A stretch of 64,000 nucleotides of DNA from Pseudomonas saponiphila (GTDB lineage: Bacteria > Pseudomonadota > Gammaproteobacteria > Pseudomonadales > Pseudomonadaceae): assembly GCF_900105185.1 (NCBI RefSeq), contig NZ_FNTJ01000001.1, positions 2,376,501 through 2,440,500 on the forward strand, written 5' to 3'. Position numbers and translations under genes: made by a program. Each line of letters starts with the position of its first letter. Position 1 is the stretch's first letter. This document shows positions 36,531 to 55,622 of this stretch, piece by piece. The notes beneath the pieces were generated by a model that was not told the DNA's origin, made no database searches, and worked only from the letters and a program-made list of their open reading frames with translations.

Positions 36531-36544
36531 TTCTCGTTGAGATT

Positions 36545-37502: not shown

Positions 37503-38003
37503 TCAAGGGCTGTGCAGCTGCAAGCGTGCGCTGGCCATGGCGTCCTTGTTGACCTCGATGGAGAACGACAGGACCGAGACGTGCTGCTGTTCCAACTGGT
37601 CGATCCAGGTGATCAGGCCGTTGAGAGGCCCCTCCAGACTGAGGTTGACCCGTCCTTCATCCTCCTGATCCATGCGTTCCAGGTTGAGTCCGGCCTGGCT
37701 GCTGGAGCGTGCCAGCAGGCCGGGCAGGGCATCGCCGGAAATGACCGGGCCTGGGAGGGAAGAGGTGCTGGCGGGCAGCTGTTGCAGATCGTGAAGCAAT
37801 TGCGTTTCCTCGGTATAGCGGCGCTCGGCCTGGGCCAGAGCCTGTTGTTGCGGTTGCCAGAGCAGGTAGAGGCTGGTCAGGCCAGCGAACACGGTCAGGG
37901 CCTGTAGCGCCCGTTGTTCGCGTTTTGCCAAGCGCTGCCAGCGGTGCCGGAGTGGGTTCGTCAGGGCGTTTCGGGCCGGGATCGAGGCGATGGGAAGCTT
38001 CAT
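37503..38003 (-). CDS. gspM: Type II secretion protein GspM
   Basis: A 166-aa protein with a short cytoplasmic N-terminus, one membrane span (residues about 34-52, LQALTVFAGLTSLYLLW), a coiled coil, and a C-terminal ferredoxin-like domain (LEGPLNGLITWIDQLEQ). This is the GspM layout: a platform protein that pairs with GspL. It is last in a continuous minus-strand operon. Family length fits. Confidence 0.88.
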   Translation of the reverse strand: MKLPIASIPARNALTNPLRHRWQRLAKREQRALQALTVFAGLTSLYLLWQPQQQALAQAERRYTEETQLLHDLQQLPASTSSLPGPVISGDALPGLLARSSSQAGLNLERMDQEDEGRVNLSLEGPLNGLITWIDQLEQQHVSVLSFSIEVNKDAMASARLQLHSP

Positions 38004-38006
38004 CGC

Positions 38007-39149
38007 TTACTCCTTGATTTGAAAACGCGTGGAGACGCCTTGCGCGTCACGCACGGATGAGTCGGTGCTGACGTTCAGGCACTGGTTGATCAGGCCCTCA
38101 CGCAGCAGTTGCAGATCGGCAAAGGCCGGGGCGCTGACTTGCAGGCTCCAGCCTTCCTCGGCCTGGTAATCCAGGCGCTGGATCTGTGACAGGGCGCCGC
38201 CGCTGGCGGCCCATTGCTCCGCCAGTTGCGACAGGCGCAGGGCCACGCCTGGGGCTTCCTGCACCTGCTGACGTTGCTTGAGTCGCACCTGATGCGCCAG
38301 GTCGGCGCTGGCCGGTTCATCGCCGAAGCGTTCTTGCCAGAGACTCTGGCTGGCCGCGTGCAGCTGGTCGCTGCGCTGCTCCAGGTACAGCCGGTGTCCG
38401 ACGTTCTGCAGCAGTTGCGCGCCGCCGGCGATCGCCAGCACCAGCAGCGCCAGGCGCCAGGGCGTCGCTTTGCGGGTGCGGCGCTGGAATTGCCCCTGGC
38501 ACAGGTCGATCGCCTGCAAGCTGCCCTGGCTGAGCACTTGCCAGGGCTGCTCTTCGGCTTGCCAGTGCTCCGGCTCCAGGCCGTCGATGCCCGGGGGCTC
38601 GGCGCCCTGCCACAGCAGCCCATCCGGCAACAGCCGGCCCAGTTCGCCGAGCTCCTGCGGGTTGAGAGTCAGGCGTAGCGCGGCGCCGCCGCCCAGCAGC
38701 CAGCGGCCGTCCCAGGCCAGGGCGCGTGGCCGGTCCTGGGGCAGGCAGTCGGCGTCGATGTGCATGCGCGATGGTTGCAGTCCGTGCTCGGCCAGACGCT
38801 TGAGGCAACGCTGCAGGCGCTCGCGGTGGATGACCAGCACTGCGCAGTGACGTCGCTCGCGCAAGGGGCCATGGGCCAGGTGCAGCTCTTCGACATCGTC
38901 GATCAGTTGTTCTTCCAGGGCACTGTGCAGGGCCTGGCGCAACCAGCGACCGCTGCGGGCCGGGACGCTGACCTGATGAAAGCTGGCCATTTCCATCGGC
39001 AGCAGCAGGGCGAAGGCATGCCCGCGCAAGTGTTCGGCGGCCTGCTCCAGATCGCCTTCCAGAGGGGCGCTGTCGACAGACCACCAGTGGCAATGCCAGG
39101 GGCGGTCGCCCGGGGTATGGGGTGAAAGGTAAAGCCAATGGCTCATCAC
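38007..39149 (-). CDS. gspL: Type II secretion protein GspL
   Basis: A 380-aa protein: a cytoplasmic actin-like domain (residues about 1-235), one membrane span (about 250-270, LALLVLAIAGGAQLLQNV) and a periplasmic part with the C-terminal ferredoxin-like domain. GspL ties the ATPase GspE to the inner-membrane platform. Its stop is 3 bases before gspM. Sequence conservation is low, as usual for GspL, but order and topology are right. Confidence 0.88.
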   Translation of the reverse strand: MMSHWLYLSPHTPGDRPWHCHWWSVDSAPLEGDLEQAAEHLRGHAFALLLPMEMASFHQVSVPARSGRWLRQALHSALEEQLIDDVEELHLAHGPLRERRHCAVLVIHRERLQRCLKRLAEHGLQPSRMHIDADCLPQDRPRALAWDGRWLLGGGAALRLTLNPQELGELGRLLPDGLLWQGAEPPGIDGLEPEHWQAEEQPWQVLSQGSLQAIDLCQGQFQRRTRKATPWRLALLVLAIAGGAQLLQNVGHRLYLEQRSDQLHAASQSLWQERFGDEPASADLAHQVRLKQRQQVQEAPGVALRLSQLAEQWAASGGALSQIQRLDYQAEEGWSLQVSAPAFADLQLLREGLINQCLNVSTDSSVRDAQGVSTRFQIKE

Positions 39150-39152
39150 GGG

Positions 39153-40040
39153 TTACTCGGTAAGCGAAGGGGCGTTGAGCGGCGCGGGTAGCAAGGTGCG
39201 CTGTTGCACGCGGACCTGGTCGGCACTCATGACCCGCAGGTCGCTGACCAAGCGCAGGCGTCGGCCATGCAGCTCAACATCGATGGTGGCGCGGAACTGG
39301 CGGCTGTTGACGCTCAGCCCGCGTGCGGTGATGTCCCGGCCCTGAAGCATGGGATTGGCGAGAAACGCAGCGACCGTCGGGTAGCCCTTGGCCGGGCGGG
39401 TCTGAGCCAGGGTCCGGGCGGTCGGCAGATCGATGCCTTCGATGCTGGCCAGCACCAGGGCGTCGGCGGTGTTGAGGTTGATGTATCCCGGCTCGTAGGC
39501 CGCCACCAGCGGCGCCAGGCGTTGCAGGGTGTCGGGGCCCACCTCTGGCAGTGGCCGCAGTTCACTGATGTCGCTCAGGGGCAAAGGGCGGCCCAGGCGG
39601 TCCCGGGGGCGCAGCAGCGCCGCCGGGTCGTGGGGCTTGATCTCGGCCAGGGCCAGCAGGCGCTGGTAGCGGGCGCGAGGAATCACATCATCCTGCACCA
39701 GCGTGCTGTTGAGGTTGAGCCGGGCGCCCAGATCGCTGATGTGAATCCTGAGCCTGCCGCCTTCGATCGGGAACGCCGGAGCCGGCCGGGCCCAGTGCTG
39801 GCCCAGATGGGTCACCAGCAGGCCGCCTTCGCTGCGGGCATCCTCCCGCAATTGGCTGCGGGCCCAGCTCTCGCCGCTCAGGGCCAGTTGCCAGAGCTGC
39901 TGGTGCTGCACCAGGTGGCTGCTGCTGGCCAGGCTGAGCCGCTGGCGGGCAAGCATGTTGCTCACCACCAGGGTCACCAGGGCGGTGATCAGCAATACGC
40001 TGAGCAGGGCGACGCCGCGCTGGGCGCGAGGCTTATTCAC
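39153..40040 (-). CDS. gspK: Type II secretion minor pseudopilin GspK
   Basis: A 295-aa protein starting with a basic leader and prepilin cleavage site Arg-Gly-Val-Ala-Leu-Leu (QRGVALLSVLLITALVTLVV). It is longer than the other pseudopilins, with a large helical insert, typical of GspK. It caps the pseudopilus tip with GspI and GspJ. The start overlaps the gspJ end by 8 bases. As in many GspK, the residue five after the cleavage site is not the usual Glu. Confidence 0.9.
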   Translation of the reverse strand: MNKPRAQRGVALLSVLLITALVTLVVSNMLARQRLSLASSSHLVQHQQLWQLALSGESWARSQLREDARSEGGLLVTHLGQHWARPAPAFPIEGGRLRIHISDLGARLNLNSTLVQDDVIPRARYQRLLALAEIKPHDPAALLRPRDRLGRPLPLSDISELRPLPEVGPDTLQRLAPLVAAYEPGYINLNTADALVLASIEGIDLPTARTLAQTRPAKGYPTVAAFLANPMLQGRDITARGLSVNSRQFRATIDVELHGRRLRLVSDLRVMSADQVRVQQRTLLPAPLNAPSLTE

Positions 40041-40632
40041 CGGGTGCGTCCTCGTCCGCTTCGGCGCCGCCCGGCAACAGGATGACCCGACGGATATTCG
40101 GGAAGCCCGGTGCGCTGAGCTTGATGTCCACGGCGGCCGGCAGACTCAGGGCTTCGCCGCTGATGGGCCAGCTGTCGTGGGGCTGGCCCGCAGCGTCGAT
40201 GAAGCGCAGGTGGATCAGCTCGACCTCACTGAGCAAGGATTGCGCCTGGCTCAGGCTGCCTTGTTCCAGGCCCTGGCTTTCGCGCAGCCACTGGCCGTCG
40301 CCGAAGCGGTGGCTGACCTGCACCAGCTCGCTGCGCGGATAGTCCAGGGGGTTGCGCCAGCCGCCGCGCAGCAGGCGCAGCCCCTGGGGCTGGCTGATCA
40401 GCGCCTGGCTATGGCTATGGTCGTCCTTGAGGGCGTGGCGCTGCACCTGCACCAGGTCCCGCTCCAGCAGACTCAGGGCCCGTTGCAGGTGGCGCAATTG
40501 CAGCTCCTGGGTCTGGATGCGCTGGTCGCTGCGCATCACCCGGTCCAGCAACTGATAGGTCGCCAGCCCCAGGAGGCTGAAGATGGCGATCGCTACCACC
40601 ACCTCCAGCAAGGTGAAGCCGCGCTGGTTCAT
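40033..40632 (-). CDS. gspJ: Type II secretion minor pseudopilin GspJ
   Basis: A 199-aa protein from ATG 40632. The type III signal is N-Q-R-G-F-T-L-L-E-V-V. The remaining beta-rich globular domain and a C-terminal Glu-rich tail are typical. It overlaps gspI by 4 bases. A longer upstream frame is only out-of-frame reading of gspI. Confidence 0.9.
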   Translation of the reverse strand: MNQRGFTLLEVVVAIAIFSLLGLATYQLLDRVMRSDQRIQTQELQLRHLQRALSLLERDLVQVQRHALKDDHSHSQALISQPQGLRLLRGGWRNPLDYPRSELVQVSHRFGDGQWLRESQGLEQGSLSQAQSLLSEVELIHLRFIDAAGQPHDSWPISGEALSLPAAVDIKLSAPGFPNIRRVILLPGGAEADEDAPGE

Positions 40633-41015
40633 GGGTTGGCCTCGATGTAACCCAGCAACTGCGCGCGGCTGTATTGCCGGGCCCGTTGCGGGTCCTGCTC
40701 GGCCGAAACCCGCAGGTTGACCTTGAGCAGCCGCGAGTCCGGCGCCGCTTCGATCTCGCTGAACAGCCACCAACTGCGCCCGCCAAACTCGACCTGGCGT
40801 TGCTGGCGGCCAACGCTGGGCGGCTGCATGCCGCTGCGCAGTTCATTCAGGTAGTTGTCGGCAATCCAGGTGGCCTGGGTGCGTTCGGCCAGGTTGCCGC
40901 TGTTGATCGCCACATGCTGGATCGCACTGAACAGCGCAATCGACACCGTGGCGAAAATCGCCAGCGCCACCATGACTTCCAGCAGGGTGAAGCCCCGTTC
41001 AGTTCGCGGTTTCAA
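40629..41015 (-). CDS. gspI: Type II secretion minor pseudopilin GspI (TTG start)
   Basis: A 128-aa protein. No ATG or GTG lies near the prepilin signal (T-E-R-G-F-T-L-L-E-V-M), but TTG 41015 has AGGAG 8 bases upstream and gives a normal leader (MKPRTERG), so I use it. It overlaps the gspH end by 17 bases. GspI starts pseudopilus assembly with J and K. Confidence 0.88.
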   Translation of the reverse strand: MKPRTERGFTLLEVMVALAIFATVSIALFSAIQHVAINSGNLAERTQATWIADNYLNELRSGMQPPSVGRQQRQVEFGGRSWWLFSEIEAAPDSRLLKVNLRVSAEQDPQRARQYSRAQLLGYIEANP

Positions 41016-41496
41016 GTCGGGGCTCCTGTAGGCCGTCGCTGGACAGGACCAGCAGCGGGGTGTTGCGGTGCTCGATCCACAGGCTGAAGGCGCTGGTTTC
41101 GTCACTGGACAACACCAGCAGTTGGGGCATGGCGCTACGGCTGCCGGCCTGGCCAAGGCTCGGGCCGGCTTCGGCCACTTCGAGGCGCAGGCGCAGGTTG
41201 GCGGGCAGGGTCTGGCTGCGCCAGTCACGGTCGGCCAGCCATTGCCCCTGTTCATCCAGGCGCAGCACGGAGTAGGCGTCGGGTTCGATGCGCAGGCCGT
41301 AGTCGCTGTTGCTCAACACTGCCTGCTGGCGCAGCAGTTGCAGCAGCGCCAGCAGGCGATCGCCTTCACGACGCGCCTGCCGGCTGGCGGAGTCGGGGTT
41401 GATCAGGCCGATCATGCCCGCGGACAGGGCGATGATCAGCACCACCACCAGCACTTCGATCAGGGTGAAGCCCTTGTTGTGGGAGCGTTGCACCAC
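40999..41496 (-). CDS. gspH: Type II secretion minor pseudopilin GspH
   Basis: A 165-aa protein with the signal H-N-K-G-F-T-L-I-E-V and hydrophobic helix to about residue 30, then a beta-rich globular domain. The stop of gspG is one base before its start codon on the minus strand. Minor pseudopilin that links tip to GspG shaft. Confidence 0.9.
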   Translation of the reverse strand: MVQRSHNKGFTLIEVLVVVLIIALSAGMIGLINPDSASRQARREGDRLLALLQLLRQQAVLSNSDYGLRIEPDAYSVLRLDEQGQWLADRDWRSQTLPANLRLRLEVAEAGPSLGQAGSRSAMPQLLVLSSDETSAFSLWIEHRNTPLLVLSSDGLQEPRLETAN

Positions 41497-41931
41497 TCAG
41501 CGGTCCCAGTTGCCGATCTCGGCGTTCAGGCCGTCGCCGCCGAGCTTGCCGTCGGCGCCGAAGGAGAACAGGTCATAACCGCTGCCGCGGGTGCCCGGCA
41601 GGCGGTACTGATAGGCGTTGCCCCAGGGATCGATGGGCAGGCGCTTGAGGTAACCGTCGGGGTTCCAGTTGCGCGCCGGCGGGTTGCCGCTGGGCTTGCT
41701 GACCAGGGCTTCGAGCCCTTGCTGGCTGCTGGGGTACTGGTGGTTGTCGAGCTTGTAGATGTCCAGGGCCATGGCGATGGCCTTGATGTCGCTCTGGGCG
41801 GCGGCGGCCTTGGCCTGATCGGGGCGGCTCATGATCTGCGGCACCACCAGGGCCGCGAGGACCCCGAGAATGACCACCACCACCATGATTTCAATCAGGG
41901 TAAAACCGCGTTGCTTGTTCTGAGTCTGCAC
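41497..41931 (-). CDS. gspG: Type II secretion major pseudopilin GspG
   Basis: A 144-aa protein with signal Q-R-G-F-T-L-I-E-I-M and the well-conserved GspG body: IKAIAMALDIYKLDNHQYPS, QGLEALVSKPSGNPPARNW, DPWGNAYQYRLPG and a C-terminal calcium-site region (SFGADGKLGGDGLNAEIGNW). It is the main subunit of the piston-like pseudopilus. Confidence 0.95.
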   Translation of the reverse strand: MQTQNKQRGFTLIEIMVVVVILGVLAALVVPQIMSRPDQAKAAAAQSDIKAIAMALDIYKLDNHQYPSSQQGLEALVSKPSGNPPARNWNPDGYLKRLPIDPWGNAYQYRLPGTRGSGYDLFSFGADGKLGGDGLNAEIGNWDR

Positions 41932-41947
41932 GTAGGGGGTTCCGGAT

Positions 41948-43165
41948 TCAGGTAATCAGTTGGTTCAGGCTGAGGATCGGCATCAGGATCGCCAGCACGA
42001 TGATCAGCACCGAGGCCCCCATGAACACCAGCATGGCCGGCTCGAACAGGCCCACCAGCAGGGCGATGCGGTTGGCCAGTTGTTCTTCCTGCTGCTTGGC
42101 GGCGCGTTCGAGCATGCTGTCCAGCTCGCCGGAGCGCTCACCGCTGGCGATCATGTAGAGCATCATCGGCGGGAAGCTGCCGTTGAGTTCCAGGGCCCGG
42201 GTCAGGCTGATACCTTCGCGTACCCCCCGGACGATGTCTTTCAGACCGGTACGAATTTTCTGGTTGGCCACCACCTCGCTGGCGATGCCCAGGGCGTCCA
42301 GCAGCGGCACGCCACTGCGCCCGAGAATCGCCAGGGTGCTGACGAAACGCGTGCAGTTGCTGGCCCGGATCAGCCTTCCCAGCAGCGGCAATTGCAGCAC
42401 CAGGGCGTGCCAGCGCTCGCGGGTGGCCGGGTTGCGGACGGCGGCGCGGGCGGCCAGCACCAGGGCCGCCAGCAACAGCAGCAGAAGCAGGCCGAAGTCT
42501 TGCAGGAAGGCGCTGCTGGCGATCAGGCCCCGGGTCAGCAGCGGCAGTTCCTGACCGCTATCGATGAACACCTTGACCACATCGGGCACCACGAAGCCCA
42601 GCAGGAAGCCGACGATGCTCACCGCCGCCAGCATCAGGATGCTCGGATAGAGCATGGCCAGCTGGATCTGCTGGCGGGCCGCCTGCTGGGCTTCGGTGTA
42701 GTCGGCCAGGTTCAGCAGCACCTGGCCCAGGTGCCCGGAGCGCTCGCCGGCGGCTACCGTGGCCCGGTACAGATCGGGGAAGGCCCGAGGGTAGGCCGCC
42801 AGCGCCACGGCCAGGCTGTAGCCTTCCAGTACCTTGGAGCGGATGGCCAGCAGCATGCTCTTGATTCGCTGCTTCTCGCACTGCGCGGCCACCGCCGCCA
42901 GCACTTCCTCCAGGGGCAGCGAGGCCTGGACCAGGGTCGACAACTGACGGGTGAGCAAGGCCAGTTCGGCGCTGCTCAAGCCGCCGCCGGACACCTGCAG
43001 CAAGCCTTTGCCACGCACGCGCTTGTTCTGCGCGGTGCTGACCTTGAGGACCACCAGCTGGCGCTCGCGCAACAGTTGCCGGGCATGGCGCGGGCTGTCG
43101 GCTTCCACCACGCCGGTGGATTTTTTTCCGGCGGCGCACATGGCCAGGTATTCGTAAGCGGCCAT
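41948..43165 (-). CDS. gspF: Type II secretion platform protein GspF
   Basis: A 405-aa inner-membrane protein with two homologous cytoplasmic helical domains (about 70-165 and 270-370) and three membrane spans (about 170-190, 220-245, 375-400). The N-terminal ATGKKSTGVVEADSPR-type motif and LLDALGIASEVVANQ segment are typical. It anchors GspE. Start lies 2 bases after the gspE stop. Confidence 0.93.
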   Translation of the reverse strand: MAAYEYLAMCAAGKKSTGVVEADSPRHARQLLRERQLVVLKVSTAQNKRVRGKGLLQVSGGGLSSAELALLTRQLSTLVQASLPLEEVLAAVAAQCEKQRIKSMLLAIRSKVLEGYSLAVALAAYPRAFPDLYRATVAAGERSGHLGQVLLNLADYTEAQQAARQQIQLAMLYPSILMLAAVSIVGFLLGFVVPDVVKVFIDSGQELPLLTRGLIASSAFLQDFGLLLLLLLAALVLAARAAVRNPATRERWHALVLQLPLLGRLIRASNCTRFVSTLAILGRSGVPLLDALGIASEVVANQKIRTGLKDIVRGVREGISLTRALELNGSFPPMMLYMIASGERSGELDSMLERAAKQQEEQLANRIALLVGLFEPAMLVFMGASVLIIVLAILMPILSLNQLIT

Positions 43166-43167
43166 GA

Positions 43168-44661
43168 TCAGTCCCTCTGGGTCACGCGCAGCAGTTCTTC
43201 CAGGCTGGTCTGCCCCAGCAGCACCATGGCCTGGCCGTCGTCGAACAGGCTGGCGCTGTGCTTGCGCGCATGCTCCAGCAGTTGATGCTCGCCGGCGCCG
43301 GTGTGGATCAGCTGACGCAAGGTGTCGTCGAACAGCACCAGTTCATAGATGCCACGGCGCCCGCGATACCCCGTGTGCTGGCAGGCGCTGCAGCCTTTGG
43401 GCCGGTACAGCTGCGGCGCGGTATCGGCGCTCAGGCCCAGGCGTTCGCAGGCGGCGTTATCGGCGCTGTGGGGCTCCTTGCACTCCGGGCACAGCAGGCG
43501 CACCAGGCGCTGGGACAACACCCCCAGCAGCGAGGTGCAGAGCAGGAAGGGCTCGATGCCCATGTCCACCAGCCGGGTCACCGCGCCGATGGCGCTGTTG
43601 GTGTGCAGGGTCGAGAGCACCAGGTGTCCGGTGAGGGACGCCTGCACGGCAATTTCCGCGGTTTCGCGGTCGCGGATCTCGCCCACCATCACCACGTCCG
43701 GGTCCTGACGGAGGATGGCCCGCAAGCCCCGGGCGAAGGTCATGTCGACCTTGGCGTTGACCTGGGTCTGGCCGATCCCGGTCAGGTGGTACTCCACCGG
43801 GTCCTCGATGGTCAGGATGTTGCGTTCCAGGCTGTTGAGGCTGGCCAGCCCGGCATACAGCGTGGTGGTCTTGCCGGAGCCGGTGGGGCCGGTGACCAGG
43901 AGAATGCCGTGGGGTTTGTGCAGGGCGATCTCCAGGCGCTGGCGCACCGTCTCGTTCATCCCCAAGTGGCTCAGGTTGAGGCGCCCGGCCTGCTTGTCCA
44001 GGAGGCGCATCACCACTCGCTCGCCGTGGCTGGAGGGCAGGGTCGAAACCCGTACATCCACCTCGTGACCGGCGATGCGCAAGGCGATCCGGCCGTCCTG
44101 GGGAATGCGCTTTTCGGCGATGTCCAGCTTGGCCATGACCTTGATCCGCGACACCAGCAAGGTTGCCAGTTCCCTCCGTGGACGCAGCACTTCACGCAGC
44201 AGGCCGTCGACCCGCAGGCGCACCGACAGGTGTTCCTCGAAGGCTTCCAGGTGCACGTCGGAGGCCTTGCTCTTGACCGCCTCGCTGAGGATCGCGTTGA
44301 TCAGGCGGATGATCGGCGCGTCATCTTCCTGTTCCAGCAGGTCGGTGGTCCTGGGCAGTTGCTCGGCCAGGCTGTTGAGGTCGAACTCTTCGTCGAACTG
44401 CTCGCCCAGGCCGTCGGCCACCTGCTTGGCGCCGTTCTGCCCATCGCGGTAGTGGGCGGCCAGGCGCTGGGCGAAGGCCTCGTCGTCCAGCACCTCGCTG
44501 CGCAGCAACGAGCCGTTGAAACGGCGCACTTCGGCCACCACCGACAATGGCGTACTGGCGCGGCAATACAGCACCGCGCCACCTTCCTGAGGGTCCAGCA
44601 CCACGCCGTGGCGGCGCGCGTAGGCAAAGGCCAGACGCGCGTCTTCGGGGCTGGCGATCAT
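43168..44661 (-). CDS. gspE: Type II secretion ATPase GspE
   Basis: A 497-aa ATPase. N1E domain at about 60-150; core from about 170. Walker A is [14 protein letters not shown] (about residues 259-272), the Asp box and Walker B follow ([19 protein letters not shown]), with His boxes. A Cys4 zinc finger (LCPECKEPH and [10 protein letters not shown]) lies at about 390-440. It powers pseudopilus assembly at the inner membrane. Overlaps gspD by 4 bases. Confidence 0.95.
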
Positions 44662-46577
44662 GGCTGGCGCTGGGCGCCCGGGGCGCGCATGTCGATCAGG
44701 CCCGCATCGCCCTGGCGGTTGGCGTCGAACAGGCGGTTGGCGTCGGCAGGCAACTGGCCGCCGGTCTTGCCGTCCGGGGCGCGCAGCGAGCGCATGTTGT
44801 TGTACTTGTGCTGGCTCATCTGCTCGGTGCTGGCGGCGTTGCGCAACAGGGTCGGACGCAGGAACACCATCAGATTGGTCTTCTCGTTGACTTCCTTGCT
44901 GCTGCTGAACAGGCGGCCGACCCAGGGAATGTCCCCCAGTAGCGGCACCTTGCTGACCTGGACCTTGACGTTGTCCTTGATCAGCCCGCCGAGGACGATG
45001 ATCTGCCCGTCGTTGGCCAGGATGGTGCTCTTGACCGAGCGCTTGTTGGTGATCACGTCGCTGGTGTTGATGCCCGGCGGCGCAGCGGCCAGCTCGGAGC
45101 TTTCCTGCTCGACATTCAGGCGTAGGAAGTTGCCCTCATTGATATGCGGGGTGACCTTGAGGGTGATCCCCACATCCTTGCGCTCCACCGTGGTGAAGGG
45201 GTTGCTGGCACCGGCGGTGTCGGTGGTGTAGGAACCGGTCTGGAACGGCACGTTCTGGCCGACGAGGATTTCCGCCGCTTCGTTGTCCAGGGTCAGCAGG
45301 CTCGGGGTGGACAGCAGGTTGTTGTTGGAGTCGCTGGACAGCGCGGTGATCAGCGCGCCGAAGTTGCTGCCGCCGATGCCGATGATCGCGCCATCGGGCA
45401 GGTTCGGGCGCTTGTCGTCCTGCAGGTTGTTGAGCAGGGTGCCAATGGACAGGCCGGCGCTGTTGAAATTGCTGGCGGCGGACAGCTTGCCGCGGTTGCC
45501 GGCCCATTGCACGCCGAGGGCCTGGTTGATGTCGCCGCTGACCTCGACGATCGCCGCTTCCACCAGCACCTGGGCCCGGGGTCGGTCCAGCTCGTTGATG
45601 ATGCTTTCGAAGGTTGCCAGCTGGGCTGGCGAGGCCATCAGTACCAGGGCGTTCTGGCTGGTGTCGGCGCTGACCAGCACCGGGCTGTCCGGTTTCTGGC
45701 TGTCGCCGCCACGGTTGCCGGATTCCATGCGCTTGCCAATGCCGCTGAGCAGTTCTTCGAGCTTCTTCGCATCGCTGTGGTTGAGCCGGCGCACCCGCGC
45801 GGTGTCGCCGACATTGGTCGGCACATCCAGGCTCTGCGCCAGACGCTGCATCTGCTGGCGAACCGGCGCCGGGCCGACCAGGATCAGGCGATTGCTGCGC
45901 GAGTCGCCAATGGCCTTGGCGCTGGTCATCGCGCTGTTGCTGTCGGCCAGGCTGTCGGTCAGGGTCTTGGCCACCTCGGTGGCCCAGGCGTGCTTGAGTT
46001 GCACGATGCTGAACTGCCGGCCACCGGCGTTATCCAGCTCGTTGATCACCAGGCGTACCCGCTCGACGTTGTTGGCGCTGTCGGAAATCACCAGGGCATT
46101 GGAGGTGGTGGAGGGCGCCATGTAGGCGTCCGCAGCTACCAGCGGGCGCACCGCGCTGGCCACCTCGCTGGCGTTGGCATTGTTCAGTTCGATGACCTGG
46201 GTCACGAACTCTTCGCTGGCACCGCTGGGCTCGGCGTGGGCCTTGGTCTTGGCTTCGGCCACCGGCAGGATCAGCACCCGGTCGCCCTGGTCCATGGCGA
46301 CAAAGCCCTGGCTGCGCAGGGCGGTGAGAAACAGCGAATAGATGCCCTGCTGATCCATGGCGGTGCTGGATTGCACCGTGACCTTGCCGTTCAGGCGAGG
46401 GTCTAGAATCATCGTCTTGCCGGTGATCTGGCCCACTTCGTTGACCAGGTCGCGCAGCTCGGCGTCCTTCATGTTCAGGGTCCACTGCTGGGCGGCGGTG
46501 GCTTTTTCCGTGGCATGCACGGGATTGATCAGGGTGCCCAGGGTCAGCAGGGACCCGGCGATAAAGGCTCGATTCAT
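44658..46577 (-). CDS. gspD: Type II secretion secretin GspD
   Basis: A 639-aa protein with a signal peptide (about 1-22), N0 domain (about 30-110), N1-N3 domains and secretin beta-barrel core (about 360-600, [25 protein letters not shown] and [14 protein letters not shown]). A short C-terminal tail (about 600-639) could be an S-type domain, but no pilotin gene is seen nearby. It forms the outer-membrane channel. Confidence 0.95.
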
Positions 46578-47625: not shown

Positions 47626-47647
47626 GGGGGCTTTACCGCTAACAAGG

Positions 47648-47671
47648 AGCGTGGCGCCGTGGCGCCACGCT
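47648..47671 (-). terminator. Hairpin without T-run after the first GbpA-like gene (attenuator candidate)
   Basis: AGCGTGGCGCC and GGCGCCACGCT form an 11-bp stem with a 2-base loop on the minus strand. It has no U-tract, so it may be a weak terminator or mRNA stabiliser that allows read-through into the cytochrome and gsp genes. Confidence 0.5.
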
Positions 47672-47691
47672 CGGGTGGTTGACGCTATGAC

Positions 47692-49230
47692 TTACTTGAG
47701 GTTCCAGGCCGACTGCCAGGCGAAACCTACGCCCGGCTCGTAGGCGTTGGAGCCGTTGGTCCACTGGGTGCACCAGCCGGCGACGGCGCCAGGCTTGCAC
47801 TCATAGGTCTTGCCATCCTTGGGTTGCAGGACCACGGTGCCGGCCTTGTAGGATTTCAGGCCATTGGGGAACACGTAGTCGTACTTGCCGTTGCCGCCTT
47901 CGTTGCCACCTTCACCACCGCCGGCTTCGGCCTTGAGGGTGAAGCGGGCGGATTGCTGCAGCACTTCGCCCTTCTTCGAGGTGGCCACGACCACCAGGTC
48001 GTAGACCCCGGCGCTGACATTGTTCAGCGGCATGGAGAAGTGCGGGGTGTTGCCGGCCGGCGCCTGCTGGAAGGCTACGCTTTCGCCCTTGGCGTTTAGC
48101 ACGGTGGCTTTCACGGTGTATTCGCCGTTCTTGGCGATGGCGTTGAAGTGCAGCTCGGTCTTGCCGTCTTTCAGGGTGTATTCGGACTGCATGCCGGTGA
48201 TGGACAGCTCGCCCGGTTTGGCGGCCTGTTCCTTGGCGATCATCACGTTGACGATGTCGCTGCCTTTCTTGACCAGGATTTCGTTCCTGCCGAAGTTCGG
48301 CACCACTTCGTCCTTGTCGTTGAGCAGGCCCATCTGGTAGCCCTGCTTGGCGGCATTGACCTTCTTCGCCAGTTCGTGCGGCCAGACGTCGGCCTTGGCC
48401 AGTTCGGCGCTATCGATGTTCAGCACCACTTGCTTGGCGTTGATCTCGCCCTGTGCGTTGAAGACGCGAGTCTTGACCTTGTCGCCGATGCTCAGGGCTT
48501 CAGGTTGTACCGCGCCAACGGTGTCCCAGTTCGACGGGATGACCGCGCCATTGTCGATGTTCAGGTCGACCACGCTGTAGAAGGTGGCGTCGGTGTCGTT
48601 GACTTTCCAGGTGGCCAGCAGCACGTGGTAACCGGAGCGGTCAGACGGGATGTTCACGGTGTGATGGGTTTTGCCTTTGGCCGGGGCCGGGACGGTGCCG
48701 GACGGCCATGGCTGATCCAGCAGCGGGGTCATTTCGAACGAGTCGCGGGTCAGCGGCTGGTTCGGATTCCAGTCTTTTTTGGTGATGTAGAACTGCCAGT
48801 AGCGGGTGGCGTGACCGGCTTCGTAGTGCCAGGTGAAGTTCTGCGGGCCCGGCTTGATGGTGGTCTTGGCCCAGCGGGTAGCACTCTGCTCGTTGATCTG
48901 GGAGAAGCGCACCAGGCCGGCGGCGGCGATGGTGCCGTTGGCTGGGCCGCATACCTTGAAGTCGCCGGTGCAGGCCTGGGCGTTGCTTGGAAAGTGCTCG
49001 AGATCGTTACGGCCAGGCACGCCGATGTACTCGGTGCTTTGTGGCTCGTACATCACTGGACCGCAGTTGGCGTTCAGTCTGCCGCCATCGGCATGGCACA
49101 TGAAGGCGCGGGACTTGGGGCTTTCGATGTAGCCGTGGGCGGAGGCTTGCTGGGCGGCCAGTCCGGCGGCGGCCATGGCGATGACGATTGGCAGTTTGAG
49201 GAAGGAACGAGTCCGGTTGGAGTTGATCAT
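47692..49230 (-). CDS. gbpA: GbpA-like AA10 lytic polysaccharide monooxygenase (paralog 1)
   Basis: A 512-aa secreted protein from ATG 49230. The signal peptide is 31 residues, cleaved before His32 (ASA-HGYIE), which then forms half of the copper histidine brace; the other His is in EAGHATRYWQFY (about residue 150). Domains: AA10 (32-215), GbpA middle domains (about 220-420), a Gly/Asn linker and a C-terminal chitin-binding domain with Cys pair and Trp (about 450-512). GbpA proteins bind and oxidise chitin and are type II cargo. A longer frame upstream is spurious. Confidence 0.93.
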   Translation of the reverse strand: MINSNRTRSFLKLPIVIAMAAAGLAAQQASAHGYIESPKSRAFMCHADGGRLNANCGPVMYEPQSTEYIGVPGRNDLEHFPSNAQACTGDFKVCGPANGTIAAAGLVRFSQINEQSATRWAKTTIKPGPQNFTWHYEAGHATRYWQFYITKKDWNPNQPLTRDSFEMTPLLDQPWPSGTVPAPAKGKTHHTVNIPSDRSGYHVLLATWKVNDTDATFYSVVDLNIDNGAVIPSNWDTVGAVQPEALSIGDKVKTRVFNAQGEINAKQVVLNIDSAELAKADVWPHELAKKVNAAKQGYQMGLLNDKDEVVPNFGRNEILVKKGSDIVNVMIAKEQAAKPGELSITGMQSEYTLKDGKTELHFNAIAKNGEYTVKATVLNAKGESVAFQQAPAGNTPHFSMPLNNVSAGVYDLVVVATSKKGEVLQQSARFTLKAEAGGGEGGNEGGNGKYDYVFPNGLKSYKAGTVVLQPKDGKTYECKPGAVAGWCTQWTNGSNAYEPGVGFAWQSAWNLK

Positions 49231-49390: not shown

Positions 49391-49487
49391 CGCAAGGCTC
49401 TAGAACAAGCATTTGGTGGGTTCGACAACGGCTCGTGCGGCACTTCGGGTGAGTCTTTTGCGCCTTGTGCGGCGCGGCCTGGCCAGC

Positions 49488-49520
49488 AAAAAAAATGAGC
49501 GTGACGCTTGCGCGTCACGC
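49488..49520 (-). terminator. Intrinsic terminator after gbpA paralog 2
   Basis: GCGTGACGC, loop GCAA, GCGTCACGC followed by CTCATTTTTTTT on the minus strand. It is strong and separates the two oxidase genes, so each has its own promoter. Confidence 0.85.
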
Positions 49521-49548
49521 CCCAAGGAGCAACTGGGGAGTTGCTGGC

Positions 49549-51105
49549 TTACTTGAGGTTCCAGGCCATCTGCCAGTGAGAACCGGTGCCTGGCTCATAC
49601 TGGGTCGCGCCAGCCTTCCACTGCACGCAGTAGCCGCTGTACGGGAACGGCTTGCACTGGTAGGTCTTGCCGTTCTTGGGTTGCAGCACCAGGGTGCCGG
49701 CCTTGTAGGACTTCAGGCCCTCAGGGAACACGTGGTCGTACTTGGCTGGCGTCTCGGGGGTGGTGCCGCCCTCGTTGCCACCGCCGCCCGGGGTTTCCTC
49801 AACCTCTGGCTCGGCCTTGAGCTTGAAGCTGATGGTTTCTTGCAGCAGCTCGCCTTTCTTCGACTTGGCCACCACCACCAGATCGTACTGGCCTGCCGTC
49901 ACGCCTTTGAGCGCGAGGCTGAAGTGCGGCGCATTGTTGCCACTGTCGGCTTGCTGGTGAGCGACGGTTTCGCCCTTGGCATTGAGCACGCTGGCGGTGA
50001 TGGTGAAGTCGCCGTTGAGGGCGATGGCGTTGAAGTGCAGGTCGACCTTGCCGTCCTTCAGGCTGTACTCGGGCTGCATGCCGGAAACCTTGAGTTCAGC
50101 CGGCTTGGCGGCCTGTTCCTTGGCGATCAGCACGCTGTTGATGTCACTGTTCTGGTTGACAAAGATGCTGTTCTTGCCGAACTGCGGCACCACCTGGTCC
50201 TTGTCGTTGAGTTCACCGATCTGGTAGCCGAGCTTGGCCTGGTTGACCTTTTCCGCCAGCGCCTTGGGCCAGATGCTGTCCTTGGCCAGCTCCGCGCTGT
50301 CGATGTTCAGGGTGACCTGCTTGGCCGCGAGTTCGCCCTGGTCGTTGAACACCCGGGTCATGACCTTGTCGCCGATGCTCAGGGGCTCGGGCTGGACGGC
50401 ACCGATGTTCTTCCAGCTCGACGGTGCGACTTCGCTGTTCTCGATGTTCACATCCACCACCTGATAGAAGGTGTTGGTGTTGTCGCCCACCATCCAGGTG
50501 GCCAGGACGATGTGATAGCCGTTGCGGTCGGCCGGAATGTTGACCTTGTGGCTGGTGATGCCGCCGGTCTTGGTCGGCAGGGTGTTGTTCCAGTTGTCGG
50601 TCAGCAGCGGCGCCGCTTCGAACGAATCACGGGTCAGCGGCTGGTTGGGATTCCAGTCTTTCTTGGTGATGTAGAACTGCCAGTTGCGGGTGGCGTGCAC
50701 CGCGGTGTAGCGCCAGTCGAAGGTGTTCAGCCCGGGCTTGATATTGACCTTGGTCCAGCGGCTGGCGGTCTGCTCGTTGAGGTTGGCGAAGTGACGCAGG
50801 CCACCGGAGGCAATAGTGCCGTTGGCGGGGCCGCACTGGGTGAACGCGCCGTGGCAGGCCTGGGCCGTGCTGGGGAAGCCGTCGCGGCTGCCGTTGGCCA
50901 GGTATTCGACGCTCTGTGGCTCGTAGGCCACCGAACCGCAGTTGCTGTTCAGGTTGCCGCCTTTGGCGCTACACATGTACGAGCGGGACTTGGGGTTTTC
51001 GATATAGCCGTGCGCCGCCGCCTGTTGCGCGCTGAGCGCCGCCATGCCGATGGCCATCGCCAGCGGAAGTTTGAGGAATGAATGGAAGGTATGCCGCGTG
51101 ATCAT
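49549..51105 (-). CDS. gbpA: GbpA-like AA10 lytic polysaccharide monooxygenase (paralog 2)
   Basis: A 518-aa paralog of the next gene downstream with the same architecture: a 31-residue signal cut before His32 (AAA-HGYIE), second brace His in TAVHATRNWQFY, GbpA middle domains, a longer Glu/Pro/Gly linker (about 435-460) and a C-terminal chitin-binding domain. Divergence is spread over the whole length, so the duplication is not recent; the linker and AA10 surface differ most, which may mean different substrates. Probably secreted by the adjacent type II system. Confidence 0.93.
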   Translation of the reverse strand: MITRHTFHSFLKLPLAMAIGMAALSAQQAAAHGYIENPKSRSYMCSAKGGNLNSNCGSVAYEPQSVEYLANGSRDGFPSTAQACHGAFTQCGPANGTIASGGLRHFANLNEQTASRWTKVNIKPGLNTFDWRYTAVHATRNWQFYITKKDWNPNQPLTRDSFEAAPLLTDNWNNTLPTKTGGITSHKVNIPADRNGYHIVLATWMVGDNTNTFYQVVDVNIENSEVAPSSWKNIGAVQPEPLSIGDKVMTRVFNDQGELAAKQVTLNIDSAELAKDSIWPKALAEKVNQAKLGYQIGELNDKDQVVPQFGKNSIFVNQNSDINSVLIAKEQAAKPAELKVSGMQPEYSLKDGKVDLHFNAIALNGDFTITASVLNAKGETVAHQQADSGNNAPHFSLALKGVTAGQYDLVVVAKSKKGELLQETISFKLKAEPEVEETPGGGGNEGGTTPETPAKYDHVFPEGLKSYKAGTLVLQPKNGKTYQCKPFPYSGYCVQWKAGATQYEPGTGSHWQMAWNLK

Positions 51106-51215
51106 CGATTGTTCCCTGATTGGACGTTATTGGATTCAACAAGCAATCGAGAGCTGGCGTAGCGACTCACCGGGAGTCTGGCGCCATTGACTGTCAGTGC
51201 TCGAAAGCCGGCGCA

Positions 51216-51262
51216 AGGTTAGGCAGCAGGGGGCGGCGGTTGAATGAGACAAGTACGAGAGT
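51216..51262 (-). promoter_or_regulatory. Promoter region of gbpA paralog 2 with shared motif (copy 2)
   Basis: Minus strand ACTCTCGTACTTGTCTCAT (51262-51244), then 22 bases, then TAACCT (51221-51216). The motif lies 139 bases before the start codon (142 in paralog 1). Confidence 0.6.
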
Positions 51263-51304
51263 GGCGCCGGGGCCGGGGCGGGCAGCCCGTCACCGGCGTC
51301 CGCT

Positions 51305-54300
51305 TCAGGGCGGCGAACCCTGGGCCTGGGGTGTCTGGGGCTGGGGGCCGCTGTCGGCGTCGGATGCTTCGCGCAAGCTGGCCAGCTGCTGGCGGGCCTC
51401 GGCGTACACCTGTTCCATGGCATTGAGCAGTGCCTGCTGGCAACTGCGCACCGACGCTGGATGGCCGGGGTCGACCTTTCTCAGGGCCTCGCAGGTTCTG
51501 GTCATGTCCGGCGCGTTGATCAGGCAGGCCACGCCGCTCAGGCGATGGGTCAGGTCGTTGATCAGGTGCGGGGTATTGGCCAGGACGCAGGTGCGCAGTT
51601 CGGCGATTTCCTGCTGCAGGTTCTTGGTCAGTTCGTTGAGGATGCGCCGATGCAGGGTCGGACTGTTTTCTCCCAGGTCCTTGAGGTGGTCGATGTCGAA
51701 GGCGCGCACCCGCTCTTCGCCGGCCCCGGTGTGACTGCCCAGCACTTCCTGCAGGCGGGCCAGGGTCACCGGCTTGATCATCAGGTCGTTCATCCCGGCG
51801 TTGGAGCATTGGGTCGCTTCGTTGCTCAGGGCGCTGGCGGTGTAGCCGACGATCAGCCGCGGCTTGGCCCCGCTCTGTTGTTCGGCTTCACGCACCGCCC
51901 GGGCCAGGCTGTAGCCGTCCATGCCCGGCATGTTGCAGTCGCTGATCAACACGTCGTAGTGGCGGTGGCGCAGTAGCTGCAGGGCTTCTTCGCCACTGCT
52001 GACGTGTTCGGCAAAGTGGCCGATGCGCTCCAGCTGCAGGGTCAGTACCAGGCCGTTGGTGGAGACATCGTCCACCACCAGCACCCGCAAGGCTTTGCCG
52101 GTGATCGGTGGCACTTCCGGTGTTTGCGCCACTTCCACGTTGGTCGTCTGCCAGCTCACCGGCAGTTCGACGTGGATGCAGCAGCCTTGGCCGGGCTCGC
52201 TTTCCAGCCAGATGCGCCCGCCCATCAGTTGCACCAGCTGATGGCAGATGCTCAGGCCCAGGCCCGAGCCGCCGTACAGGTGGGCGGTGCGCGCGGTGGC
52301 CTGGCGATAGGGCTCGAAAATCCCCGCCTGGTTGGCCAGGGGAATGCCGATGCCGGTATCGCGCACGCTCAGGGTCAGCAGGCTGCTGTCGCCCTGCACA
52401 TGGGTTTCGCGCAGGGTGACCTGGATGTGGCCGCGGTCGGTGAACTTCAAGGCATTGCTCAAGAGGTTGTGCAGAATCTGCTGCAGGCGCAGCGAGTCGA
52501 CCCAGTACAGCCGGCTGGGGCTGGCCTGATAGTCGAAATTCAGCTGCAGGCGTTTCTCCCGGGCTTGTACGGCAAACAGTCCCAGGCCATTGGCGAGCAA
52601 GGGTTCCAGGGCGGTGGGATGGGGTGCCAGTTGCATCAGGCCACTCTCTATTTTGTCCAGGTCCAGGATGTTGCCGATCAGGTCGATCATCGAGGTCGCC
52701 GATTGCTGGGCCACCCGCAGGTTGTGCGAGGGTGTCTGGCTGGCGCTGGTTTCCAGCTCCAGCAGGCCCACCAGGGCGTTGAGCGGGGTGCGCAACTCAT
52801 GGCTCATGGAGGCGAGAAACTCGCTCTTGGCGGCGCTGGCCTTCTGCGCGATCTGCTTGGCCTCGCGCAACTTGAGTTCCAGGTTCTTGCGCTCGGAGAT
52901 GTCCAGCCAGCCCCCCAGCAACCCCTGCAGGACCCCGCGGGCGTTGTAGAACGGCACCAGCCACTGATAGAGGCAGTACTGCTGCTCCTTGATCCACAGG
53001 CTGGTGTCGAGAAAGCGTGGCCGGTGATTGGCCAGCAGCAGTTGATGTTCCTCTTGCAGCACTTCGGCGAAGTCTCGCGGCATGTTCGGCTGCTCGGTGG
53101 GCAGGCAGCCCTCGACCTGTTCCTGGGAGGTGGCGAAGAACTCCTCGTAGGCGCGGTTGCAGGTGCTCAGCCGGCCGTCCAGGTCGCAGACATACAGCGG
53201 CGTCGGCAGGCCATTGAGCAGGGAAAACTGGAAGGCCAGCTTGTCCTGCAGGCGGGTCTGCACGCAGATGGTTTCCCGCACCTGGATCTTCAGGCGCCAG
53301 TTCCAGATCAGCGACAGCACGAAGATGATCAGGATCACCACGCCCACATGCCAGGCCTGCTCGGCGACCCAGCTCCAGAGCGCGGCGCTGGACTGTTGTT
53401 CGGCGATCAGCTGGATGTCGCTTTGCGGGTTCCTGGCCATGGAATCGAGCAGCTTGTCGAGCACGCTCAGCAACTCCCTGGAACCTGGGGCCGCGGCAAA
53501 GCGGTGCGGCGTGGGCAGGGCGTCGAAGGCCAGACCGAACTGCAGCCCGGAGCCGGACAGCGCCTCGGTGCCCACCGGGGTGTCCAGGGTGGCATCGACC
53601 TGACGTTGCAGCACCAGGTTCAGGGCCTGGCGATGATCGTCGGTGAGCAGCAGATGGATGTCCGGGTAGCGCTGTTTCAGGTGTTCGAGCAACGGGTGGT
53701 TGCGCGGCAGCGCCAGTTGCCGCCCCAGCATGGCGTCCAGGGAACTGGGAGAGCTGTCGCCATGACGCACCACAAAGGCCCAGTTGCGGGTGCCGTAGCT
53801 CTGGCTCAGGCCGATGCCCCGGGCGTTGTCGGGCAGGCCCAGGTCGCGGGTGGTCAGGTCGGCGCTGCCGGCGGCCAGCTGTTCCAGGTCGCCGGCCCGG
53901 GAAAGACTGGGCTGAATGTTGAGTTGCAGGCGGAACGAGCTGGCCAGGGTGCGCAGGATATCGATGCTCAGTCCGGCCCATTGGCCCTCGGCATTGCGGT
54001 AGATGTAGGGCGGCGCTTCCTCGGCCAGCAGATTGATCTGCCGGTGTGCGGTGAGCCAGTTCAGCTCGCCGGGAGTCAGGGAAAAGGACTCGGTCGGGGC
54101 GAAGGGAAAGGGCTCCTGGCTCGACTGGTTCTGGATCCGCCGCTTGTGCTCCTCGGGAATGGCGTTGAGTACGTAGTCGATCAGTGCCCGCAGGGTGGCG
54201 TCCTCATGGCGCACGGCGAAGGCGAAGCCGGCGTCGGGCAGCTGTGGATAGAACTTGCTGTGCAGCCGCAGGTCCGGGCGGGCCTGCATGTAAAGGGTGG

Positions 54301-54949
54301 TGCGGAAGCGATCGCTGATAAAGGCGTCGGCCTGTTTGCCGGCCAGTTGCTCAAGGGCCAGGGCAGTGGTGTGCACGCCGCTGATGTCGGCCCGGGGATA
54401 GGTCTTGCGGACGGTCTCAAGGTCTAGGTAGTTGTCCAGCACCAGGACCCGCTTGCCTTCCAGGTCCGGTGGCAGGCTCTTGTCGTTGATGCGCCCGACG
54501 ATGATCGGCTGGTTGTTCAGGTACGGACGGCTGAGGGCCAGGCCGGGGTTCTGCGCTTCAAGCGCGGTGGCCCGGGGCAGCAGGTCGATTCGGTGTTCGA
54601 GCAGGGCCCGGATCGCGTCCTGGGGCGAGGCCAGCTCGACGTACTCGAAGCGCAGGCCCAACTGCTTGCCGATGAGCTTGAGGTACTCGTCGGAGATCAC
54701 CTTGAGCACCTGGTTGCCGGCACTTTCCAGGGGCCGCTCGGGAGGCACGATGGTCGCTACCCGCAGCACCTTGTGGGGCAGGGTGCTGCGCATGTCGAGC
54801 AGCCGGGCCAGCGACGGATTGCCCGGCTCCTGCGGCTCGGTGCAGTGGGCGGGCAGGCTGAAGAACAGGCTGACCAGGACCATGAAGCTGAACAGCAGGC
54901 AGACACGGATCAGCCTCCAGAACTGGGGGGGACGGGAAATCAGGGGCAT
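51305..54949 (-). CDS. BvgS/EvgS-like hybrid sensor kinase
   Basis: A 1214-aa protein. Signal or anchor at about 10-35; two periplasmic solute-binding-type sensor domains (about 60-285 and 300-520, with GLSIDILRTLASSFRLQ in the second); membrane span about 530-555; PAS domain (about 580-690); HisKA with KSEFLASMSHELRTPLNAL (about 715-780); HATPase with GGSGLGLSICHQL; receiver with DVLISDCNMPGMDG (about 960-1075); C-terminal Hpt with THRLSG (about 1150). This is the unorthodox four-step phosphorelay of BvgS. It lies next to a cognate-looking response regulator and upstream of the oxidase genes. Confidence 0.92.
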   Translation of the reverse strand: MPLISRPPQFWRLIRVCLLFSFMVLVSLFFSLPAHCTEPQEPGNPSLARLLDMRSTLPHKVLRVATIVPPERPLESAGNQVLKVISDEYLKLIGKQLGLRFEYVELASPQDAIRALLEHRIDLLPRATALEAQNPGLALSRPYLNNQPIIVGRINDKSLPPDLEGKRVLVLDNYLDLETVRKTYPRADISGVHTTALALEQLAGKQADAFISDRFRTTLYMQARPDLRLHSKFYPQLPDAGFAFAVRHEDATLRALIDYVLNAIPEEHKRRIQNQSSQEPFPFAPTESFSLTPGELNWLTAHRQINLLAEEAPPYIYRNAEGQWAGLSIDILRTLASSFRLQLNIQPSLSRAGDLEQLAAGSADLTTRDLGLPDNARGIGLSQSYGTRNWAFVVRHGDSSPSSLDAMLGRQLALPRNHPLLEHLKQRYPDIHLLLTDDHRQALNLVLQRQVDATLDTPVGTEALSGSGLQFGLAFDALPTPHRFAAAPGSRELLSVLDKLLDSMARNPQSDIQLIAEQQSSAALWSWVAEQAWHVGVVILIIFVLSLIWNWRLKIQVRETICVQTRLQDKLAFQFSLLNGLPTPLYVCDLDGRLSTCNRAYEEFFATSQEQVEGCLPTEQPNMPRDFAEVLQEEHQLLLANHRPRFLDTSLWIKEQQYCLYQWLVPFYNARGVLQGLLGGWLDISERKNLELKLREAKQIAQKASAAKSEFLASMSHELRTPLNALVGLLELETSASQTPSHNLRVAQQSATSMIDLIGNILDLDKIESGLMQLAPHPTALEPLLANGLGLFAVQAREKRLQLNFDYQASPSRLYWVDSLRLQQILHNLLSNALKFTDRGHIQVTLRETHVQGDSSLLTLSVRDTGIGIPLANQAGIFEPYRQATARTAHLYGGSGLGLSICHQLVQLMGGRIWLESEPGQGCCIHVELPVSWQTTNVEVAQTPEVPPITGKALRVLVVDDVSTNGLVLTLQLERIGHFAEHVSSGEEALQLLRHRHYDVLISDCNMPGMDGYSLARAVREAEQQSGAKPRLIVGYTASALSNEATQCSNAGMNDLMIKPVTLARLQEVLGSHTGAGEERVRAFDIDHLKDLGENSPTLHRRILNELTKNLQQEIAELRTCVLANTPHLINDLTHRLSGVACLINAPDMTRTCEALRKVDPGHPASVRSCQQALLNAMEQVYAEARQQLASLREASDADSGPQPQTPQAQGSPP

Positions 54950-54980
54950 AGGGGGGAAGCTCCGGAGTTTTGAGGACCGC

Positions 54981-55622
54981 TCAGCTCAGGCCGTGTTCCT
55001 GGATGTACAGGAACAGGCTGGCCGAGGTGTCCAGGCCAAGCTTGCGCATGGCGCTGCTCTTTTGCGTGCTGATCGTCTGTTTGCTGCGGCACAGGTGCTG
55101 GGCGATGGCGCCGATGCTCATGCCGGTGCCATACAGGCGCAGCACCTCGATCTCCCTGGCCGACAACTGTTCGGGCTGCAGCAGCGGCTTGCCATGCAGG
55201 GCGGTGCTGGTGTCCAGCAGATGCTGGATCGACGGCGACACGAAGGGCGCACGCGGGTTGGCGGCAATCGCCTTGGGCAGGTCGTTGAGCAAGCCACGCT
55301 TGCTCACCAGCCCCTGGATGCCGAGTTTGAGCAGGCTGCTGATCAGCGCCGGGTTGTCGAGCATGGTGATCACCACGATGGCCAACTCCGGGTAGCGTGA
55401 ACGCAGGCGTCTGATCAGACGAATCCCATCCACCTGATCGCCGCCGGGCATCATCAGGTCGGTCAGCAGCAGGTCGCAGGGTTGGCGCTGCAGGTTCTCC
55501 AACAGGGTTTCCACGCTGTGGGCCTGGGCAACGATCTCCAGTTCGGCGCGGTTTTCCAGCAGGGTATGTATCCCAATCAGGGTCAAGGGATGGTCATCGG
55601 CTATCTGCACGCGGATCGGCAT
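54981..55622 (-). CDS. BvgA/NarL-type response regulator
   Basis: A 213-aa protein from ATG 55622; the longer frame lacks a site. Receiver with acid pair Asp9-Asp10 and phospho-acceptor Asp55 (LLLTDLMMPGGD); LuxR-type HTH at about 145-205 (LSAREIEVLRLYGTGMSIGAIAQHL). It precedes the hybrid kinase by 31 bases and is probably its partner. BvgA/EvgA-type regulators activate distant operons. A palindrome upstream may be its own site. Confidence 0.92.
   Translation of the reverse strand: MPIRVQIADDHPLTLIGIHTLLENRAELEIVAQAHSVETLLENLQRQPCDLLLTDLMMPGGDQVDGIRLIRRLRSRYPELAIVVITMLDNPALISSLLKLGIQGLVSKRGLLNDLPKAIAANPRAPFVSPSIQHLLDTSTALHGKPLLQPEQLSAREIEVLRLYGTGMSIGAIAQHLCRSKQTISTQKSSAMRKLGLDTSASLFLYIQEHGLS

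Follow-up and report, generated by a model that had tools for sequence, protein, structure and literature searches.

The locus described here raises the question of whether a sensor pair, two copper oxidases, a cytochrome b561 and a secretion operon that lie together on one strand form a single system, and what part the cytochrome would take in it. The locus lies in a 64,000-nucleotide stretch of the Pseudomonas saponiphila genome (the whole of which is called the window below), on the minus strand at 37503-55622, with the transcription order ttsR-ttsS-LPMO1-LPMO2-b561-gspC-D-E-F-G-H-I-J-K-L-M, where LPMO stands for lytic polysaccharide monooxygenase and the gsp genes encode a type II secretion system (T2SS). 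An earlier sequence-only reading had named a BvgA/BvgS-type pair, two GbpA-like oxidases, a b561 and gspC-M, and we found every one of these parts on that strand where it had placed them. The view that the island is a new combination of known parts had to be given up: with gspC-M, a GbpA-type LPMO and a BvgS/NarL-type two-component system on one strand, the island is of the Txc/TtsSR/CbpE type, in print since 2012-2014, here with a second LPMO. We consider it likely that it comprises TtsSR-controlled LPMOs and a dedicated T2SS, with the b561 as a quinone-linked accessory that tunes periplasmic conditions. Under this account, the TtsS/TtsR phosphorelay would switch on both GbpA/CbpE-type LPMOs and the dedicated T2SS, and the Txc machine would export the two LPMOs. 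The b561, a predicted inner-membrane redox protein exchanging electrons with the quinone pool, would most likely tune the periplasmic surroundings of the LPMOs (redox state, oxygen radicals or metals) before or during their export. Gene content, gene order, overlaps, domains, conservation and presence or absence are observed here, regulation and CbpE secretion are carried over by analogy from P. aeruginosa PA7, and we infer the activity of the LPMOs on chitin, the signal sensed, the use of quinone and any role of the b561.

The published homologue of this island is the one of P. aeruginosa PA7. As reported in the portions of the literature available, its Txc T2SS, TtsS-TtsR and CbpE constitute the genomic island RGP69 (Cadoret et al. 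2014, via citing papers), with txc corresponding to PSPA7_1407-1417, cbpE to 1419 and the two-component system to 1420-21, while 1418 is unnamed (PMC12369383). In the same accounts TtsSR positively regulates txc and cbpE (PMC8623646), and Txc is involved in CbpE secretion (PMC8623646, PMC12369383). The PA7 locus in our set (L015) has the order ttsR-ttsS-LPMO-b561-gspC-M, with a ttsR match in the corresponding place and with the frame holding gspC starting before the b561 frame; by this order, PSPA7_1418 would be the b561 gene. Literature searches found no paper on PSPA7_1418 and nothing on LPMOs together with b561 apart from one unrelated paper on mites. The two islands match in genes and order, including the b561 between LPMO and gsp, but PA7 has one LPMO gene where the window has two, and the host genomes differ. 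The linkage of the cytochrome is itself on record: for Yersinia, P. aeruginosa and P. putida a 2012 review, as far as its text was available, describes a cytochrome b/b561 gene linked with a ChiY/GbpA-like gene and a Yts1-like T2SS, leaving the role of the cytochrome open between a marker of the insertion site and a function in secretion (PMC3521999). The Yts1-ChiY clusters thus resemble the window in linking a GbpA-like substrate gene, a T2SS operon and a cytochrome b/b561 gene, but have the regulator PclR instead of a BvgS-type kinase, and in Yersinia chiY lies downstream of the Yts1 operon, whereas the window LPMOs lie upstream of gsp. At this locus the window genome is close to P. protegens FD6, the GspD proteins of the two being 98% identical.

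The regulator pair heads the island. The ttsR-like gene (54981..55622) encodes a NarL/LuxR-type response regulator (Response_reg 4.1e-21, GerE 6.2e-09), which starts with an ATG at 55622; a TTG is present upstream at 55748. The ttsS-like gene (51305..54949) encodes a hybrid histidine kinase of 1214 aa with the domain order of BvgS in Pfam, namely SBP_bac_3 (two stretches), PAS, HisKA, HATPase_c, Response_reg and Hpt, the last falling below the Pfam cut-off (21.5 vs 24.6 bits). SBP_bac_3 domains bind small ligands. Downstream of the kinase are the two CbpE/GbpA-type AA10 proteins, LPMO1 (49549..51105; LPMO_10 8.5e-42) and LPMO2 (47692..49230, ATG at 49230; LPMO_10 2.3e-40), each also matching GbpA_2 and GbpA_D3; they are 65% identical to one another, and the PA7 protein shares 59% identity with LPMO1. 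Among solved structures the best match is GlcNAc-binding protein A (8gul, E 5.3e-91), which aligns to residues 40-516 of the 518 of LPMO1, and it is through this alignment only that a fourth, C-terminal chitin-binding domain is indicated. A signal peptide, whose end was placed by inspection, precedes His32 as the expected mature N-terminus of LPMO1. Both H32 and H137, the histidine pair of GbpA-type AA10 proteins, are kept in the two LPMOs in the alignment; as in the AA10 family, they would form the copper brace in both. The two enzymes are predicted to act on chitin. ChiY and GbpA have, in the available text of the 2012 review, been described as binding and colonisation proteins (PMC3521999), and together with the ligand-binding domains of the kinase this gives some ground for an alternative in which the two SBP_bac_3 domains of the kinase receive a non-chitin signal and the LPMOs are mainly adhesins. 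The retention of H32 and H137 in both proteins speaks against adhesion as their main function, as does CbpD, an LPMO of P. aeruginosa which oxidises chitin according to the accessible part of its description (PMC7902821), and we regard this alternative as rather unlikely. A third LPMO_10 gene, an open frame of 216 aa, is present elsewhere in the genome, and in P. protegens FD6 the GbpA-type LPMO genes number four, in tandem (L004, 6421-14111). In three further contigs (G004:C15, G040:C17 and G282:C1) a different gspE-type gene was seen at a distance of about 3.5 kb from an LPMO frame of 509-524 aa, both on one strand, and the genus-wide b561 search gave no match in that stretch.

The secretion genes comprise a secretin, an ATPase, an inner-membrane platform and five pseudopilins, as expected of a T2SS. 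The products of gspD (secretin, 44658..46577; TIGR02517, 3.5e-154), gspE (ATPase, 43168..44661; TIGR02533, 3.9e-208), gspF (41948..43165; TIGR02120, 3.5e-145), gspG (major pseudopilin, 41497..41931; TIGR01710, 5e-57), gspH (40999..41496; TIGR01708, 9.6e-26), gspI (40629..41018, start codon approximate; TIGR01707, 2.2e-24), gspJ (40033..40632, start by inspection; TIGR01711, 1.6e-36) and gspK (39153..40040; NF037980, 1.4e-62) each exceed the cut-off of their own NCBIfam model. That of gspC (46574..47122; Pfam T2SSC, 1e-09) is over the Pfam cut-off (38.8 vs 27 bits) but under that of NCBIfam GspC_delta (30.2 vs 150), and gspL (38007..39149) and gspM (37503..38003) were assigned by position and homology across related clusters only. 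A prepilin peptidase (GspO) was not noticed among the open reading frames (ORFs) examined, no dedicated search having been made in window or genome. The linked sensor-LPMO-T2SS unit that had been proposed from the letters of the DNA therefore stands, but the description 'self-contained' goes further than the findings, given that no such peptidase was seen among these ORFs and that an electron-carrying role of the b561 is speculative.

The b561 gene (47119..47625; 168 aa; PF01292, E 3.3e-19) overlaps gspC by 4 bases, as gspC does gspD, and is thereby integrated into the gsp unit. Further upstream the genes are more widely spaced, with about 30 bases between ttsR and ttsS, 200 between ttsS and lpmo1, 320 between lpmo1 and lpmo2 and 66 between lpmo2 and b561. 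A terminator-like hairpin with an 11-bp stem and 8 T in its tail follows lpmo1 on the minus strand (49497..49522), although terminator-like sites overall are not in excess of shuffled sequences (10 found vs 8.8 expected). Between lpmo2 and b561 lies a GC-rich perfect inverted repeat with 12-base arms (47647..47672), which is also present in L004. On account of these two elements, the LPMO genes and those of the machine may differ in their level of expression. A promoter scan found none.

How far does this arrangement extend beyond the window? A search with the LPMO recovered 43 loci, in 20 of which, all from Pseudomonas, gsp genes follow the LPMO. A b561 accompanies 18 of the 20, the exceptions being P. 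protegens FD6 (L004) and L019, and none of the 23 loci without gsp, 20 of which are not from Pseudomonas, such that distance may hide copies. The notion that b561 follows LPMO genes in general was accordingly rejected. We then consider 398 Pseudomonas genomes, the window's own included, in which a limited number of candidates was scored per genome, so that genome counts are lower bounds: b561 was found in at least 100, GspD (1e-90) in at least 197 and a GbpA-type LPMO (1e-45) in at least 107. Among the matches listed, there are 97 clusters in which a GbpA-type LPMO is followed by a T2SS gspD, with ten LPMO genomes left out for want of a listed gspD (G037, G109, G120, G181, G229, G256, G302, G303, G307 and G318). 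In 66 of the 97 (57 with a listed gspD and 9 seen to be gsp-linked in fetched loci; the window's own is included) the b561 lies between LPMO and gspC, in one case split in two pieces (G316). In two it comes after gspM, intact in G171 and broken into pieces in G358, and the remaining 29 have LPMO and gspD without a b561 match. Of the latter, 20 were fetched (L209 being short), G283, G331 and G394 were read over short stretches, G325 was read via its twin L004, and G268, G274, G275, G371 and G382 were judged by spacing alone. Given the recurrence of the LPMO-b561-gsp order in 66 clusters, the order in the island is far beyond chance.

The same survey separates the sensor from the rest. The fetched loci include 65 clusters whose b561 lies between LPMO and gsp; of these, 9 belong to the Txc type and 56 to another type, the latter with gltB or gltD upstream in 54 cases and with an MFS gene in view downstream in 4, the other stretches ending before that point. 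In most fetched stretches of clusters without b561, MFS and LysR genes follow gspM. A ttsS match of more than 500 bits is found in 8 of the 9 Txc-type clusters (the exception being L093) and in 0 of the 56 others, and the sensor is therefore a feature of the Txc branch and not of the LPMO-b561-T2SS unit. Synteny of the whole island across Pseudomonas, to which the sequence-only reading had looked for confirmation, is thus partial: the LPMO-b561-gsp order recurs, but ttsS comes only with Txc-type clusters, and in 31 of 97 clusters the b561 is missing or lies elsewhere. In the survey of LPMO loci, a strong ttsS-like match was seen in 16 of the 20 gsp-linked loci, in some split over frames. In L010, L011, L083 and L085, all from multi-contig genomes, the kinase match runs over two or more frames, which may reflect decay or sequencing error.

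The b561 likewise proved separable. Our loci had at first been picked by b561, and the idea that it is always part of the unit was rejected when the LPMO and GspD searches yielded the 29 clusters without a match. Within the 20 of these that were fetched, the b561 profile has no match in 18 (frames of at least 40 aa; G061 among them), a partial one in G169, and L209 is too short for its far end to be read. Pieces of b561 remain in G169, G283 and G331, and a weak one in G394 (15 bits). In P. protegens FD6 (L004, the same as G325) a 23-codon ORF that starts and ends like b561 occupies its place and is followed by gspC-gspK as far as the locus reaches; G061 (L203) has a 23-codon ORF of the same kind, with short b561 ends only. 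Given the position shared by both branches and the leftover pieces, we infer that the presence of b561 is ancestral, and it appears to have been lost many times in related bacteria. As clusters are often without b561 while LPMO and gsp persist, it looks like a separable accessory and not a core part of the secretion machine. In line with this, 16 changes of state are needed on a GspD tree of 88 rows (b561 between LPMO and gsp in 66, none in 21 and downstream in 1), at least 12 of them by well supported branches.

Several points weigh against the favored account. No expression, secretion or activity data for this strain were found, and the hairpin and inverted repeat that follow lpmo1 and lpmo2, respectively, speak against a single simple transcript. 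The GspD tree is a quick one, without bootstrap and with some long branches. Furthermore, 39 of 107 b561 contexts are without a gsp cluster (one not of the subfamily described below, and some near contig ends), and the association could therefore be neutral. A rival with an appreciable, though lesser, chance of being right is that the b561 is a passenger, either marking a preferred site for acquired T2SS and LPMO genes or being an old neighbor, with no role in LPMO function or secretion; it is one of the two options of the 2012 review in its available text (PMC3521999). Besides the many state changes on the tree, it gains from b561s of the same subfamily that lie without a gsp cluster at the gltBD...MFS-LysR site (13 loci) or near an amino-acid permease (11), and from the genes that are only downstream of gspM in G171 and G358. 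One further locus (L101, or G386:C6) has two b561 genes flanking gsp, one before gspD and one after gspM, with no gspC match, and likewise speaks for a passenger. Against a passenger stand the position of b561 inside the unit in those 66 clusters, be it in a Txc-type island or at the gltBD site, and its overlap with gspC in the window. Moreover, some solo b561s resemble remnants of a lost cluster more than empty sites: in L165 an LPMO fragment lies upstream of a solo b561 that is close to an intact cluster's copy, L183, with a solo b561 at the gltBD site, has a gspG-like match, and the 13 solo copies at that site are scattered among cluster copies instead of forming one clade. The b561 can thus outlive the cluster and the cluster the b561, which argues against an essential machine part but stays compatible with a facultative redox role. 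A solo b561 of this subfamily (L091, L193; G186:C24) was seen close to matches for other response regulators and kinases, with neither LPMO nor gsp in its vicinity.

As to the protein itself, its structure model (pLDDT 87.5, built from 61 sequences) has the four-helix b561 fold, and its best solved relative is the E. coli superoxide oxidase CybB (5oc0; fold search E 8e-06, TM 0.85). Window residues H14, N48, H87, H134, H148 and H155 align with E. coli H13, H45, H87, H137, H151 and H158, of which H13, H45, H137 and H151 are the CybB heme ligands as assigned from alignment and topology; three of these four positions are thus His in the window protein, and the fourth, H45, is Asn. In CybB, according to the available text, H87 and H158 take part in quinone reduction near heme 1, and the entry point for superoxide is a cluster of cationic residues on the periplasmic side, near heme 2 (PMC11869295). 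The positions matching H87 and H158 are His in 17 of 17 T2SS-linked b561s of our alignment A2, in which H14, N48, H87, M104, R107, H134, C138, H148 and H155 are all invariant. In a wider set of 71 T2SS-linked rows, which include pieces and one overlapping pair of loci, N48 is kept in 70, an out-of-frame piece being the only row without it; H14 is kept in 69, with a Tyr in one row, C138 in 67 and R107 in 59. However, N48 and C138 are also seen in 38 and 30 of 39 solo rows, so that this signature marks a subfamily, here called Asn48, and not T2SS linkage; in rows from database searches, picked by similarity, they occur in 121 and 119 of 121. Of the four b561 paralogues of the window genome, L077, L079 and L080 carry His where the window protein has N48, the fourth (L078) not being aligned. 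Beyond Pseudomonas, in 369 class-level genomes with the window's own included, 12 matched the b561; among the other 11, the ligand position is Asn in G611 and G653 but not in the remaining nine. Neither of the two has an LPMO or gsp within 1.5-kb flanks of its b561; in G653 an LPMO lies at a distance of about 41 kb, while the search of G611 found none. Taken together, the quinone end of the Asn48 protein looks intact and its periplasmic end altered.

The fold and quinone-site residues common to CybB invite the proposal that the b561 protects the cell from superoxide arising in LPMO or copper chemistry, as proposed for CybB. A parallel is offered by Burkholderia lcoA, a b561 gene paired with a secreted-protein gene as part of an antioxidant system (PMC9113575): as in the window, it adjoins a gene for an exported protein, but the partner is a lipocalin (BcnA), and the available part of that report describes no T2SS or LPMO. 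We nevertheless hold this proposal to be improbable. Apart from the Asn at the H45 ligand position and the Cys138 added in most members, the cationic antenna is largely not kept, the positions of R30, R35, R38 and K134 being non-basic in the window protein in an alignment read by hand, with R107 adjoining the R108 position of CybB without being aligned to it. Its score against the NCBIfam cytochrome b561 equivalog NF008566 is also far below the cut-off (22.7 vs 170 bits).

To our knowledge, it is unsettled how bacteria supply electrons or peroxide to secreted LPMOs. In this regard, we put forward as a long shot that the Asn48 b561 is a quinol-fed device whose open or otherwise changed periplasmic heme site (H134, mostly C138 and perhaps M104) reduces O2, superoxide or Cu(II), and so feeds H2O2 or reduced copper to LPMOs in transit to Txc. 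If this were true, a bacterial secreted LPMO would have an electron source dedicated to it. Such a source could be done without wherever other reductants are sufficient, and this would account for its many absences.

Next to the island, at window positions 31131-36632, are prophage-like ORFs (tail-like and lysozyme-like ones named by eye, SRAP by Pfam), which adjoin a tRNA-Ser(tga) gene on the minus strand (36545-36632); this gene is a possible attachment site for them.

Returning to the account favored here, of a Txc-type island with the b561 as an accessory, what is fresh is the finding, now with counts, that a b561 of a distinct subfamily is often absent; this sharpens the question posed in 2012 (PMC3521999). 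The map of presence and absence yields close relatives with and without b561 that keep LPMO and gsp, for example the window genome and P. protegens FD6, and the question of the cytochrome is therefore open to a natural comparison.

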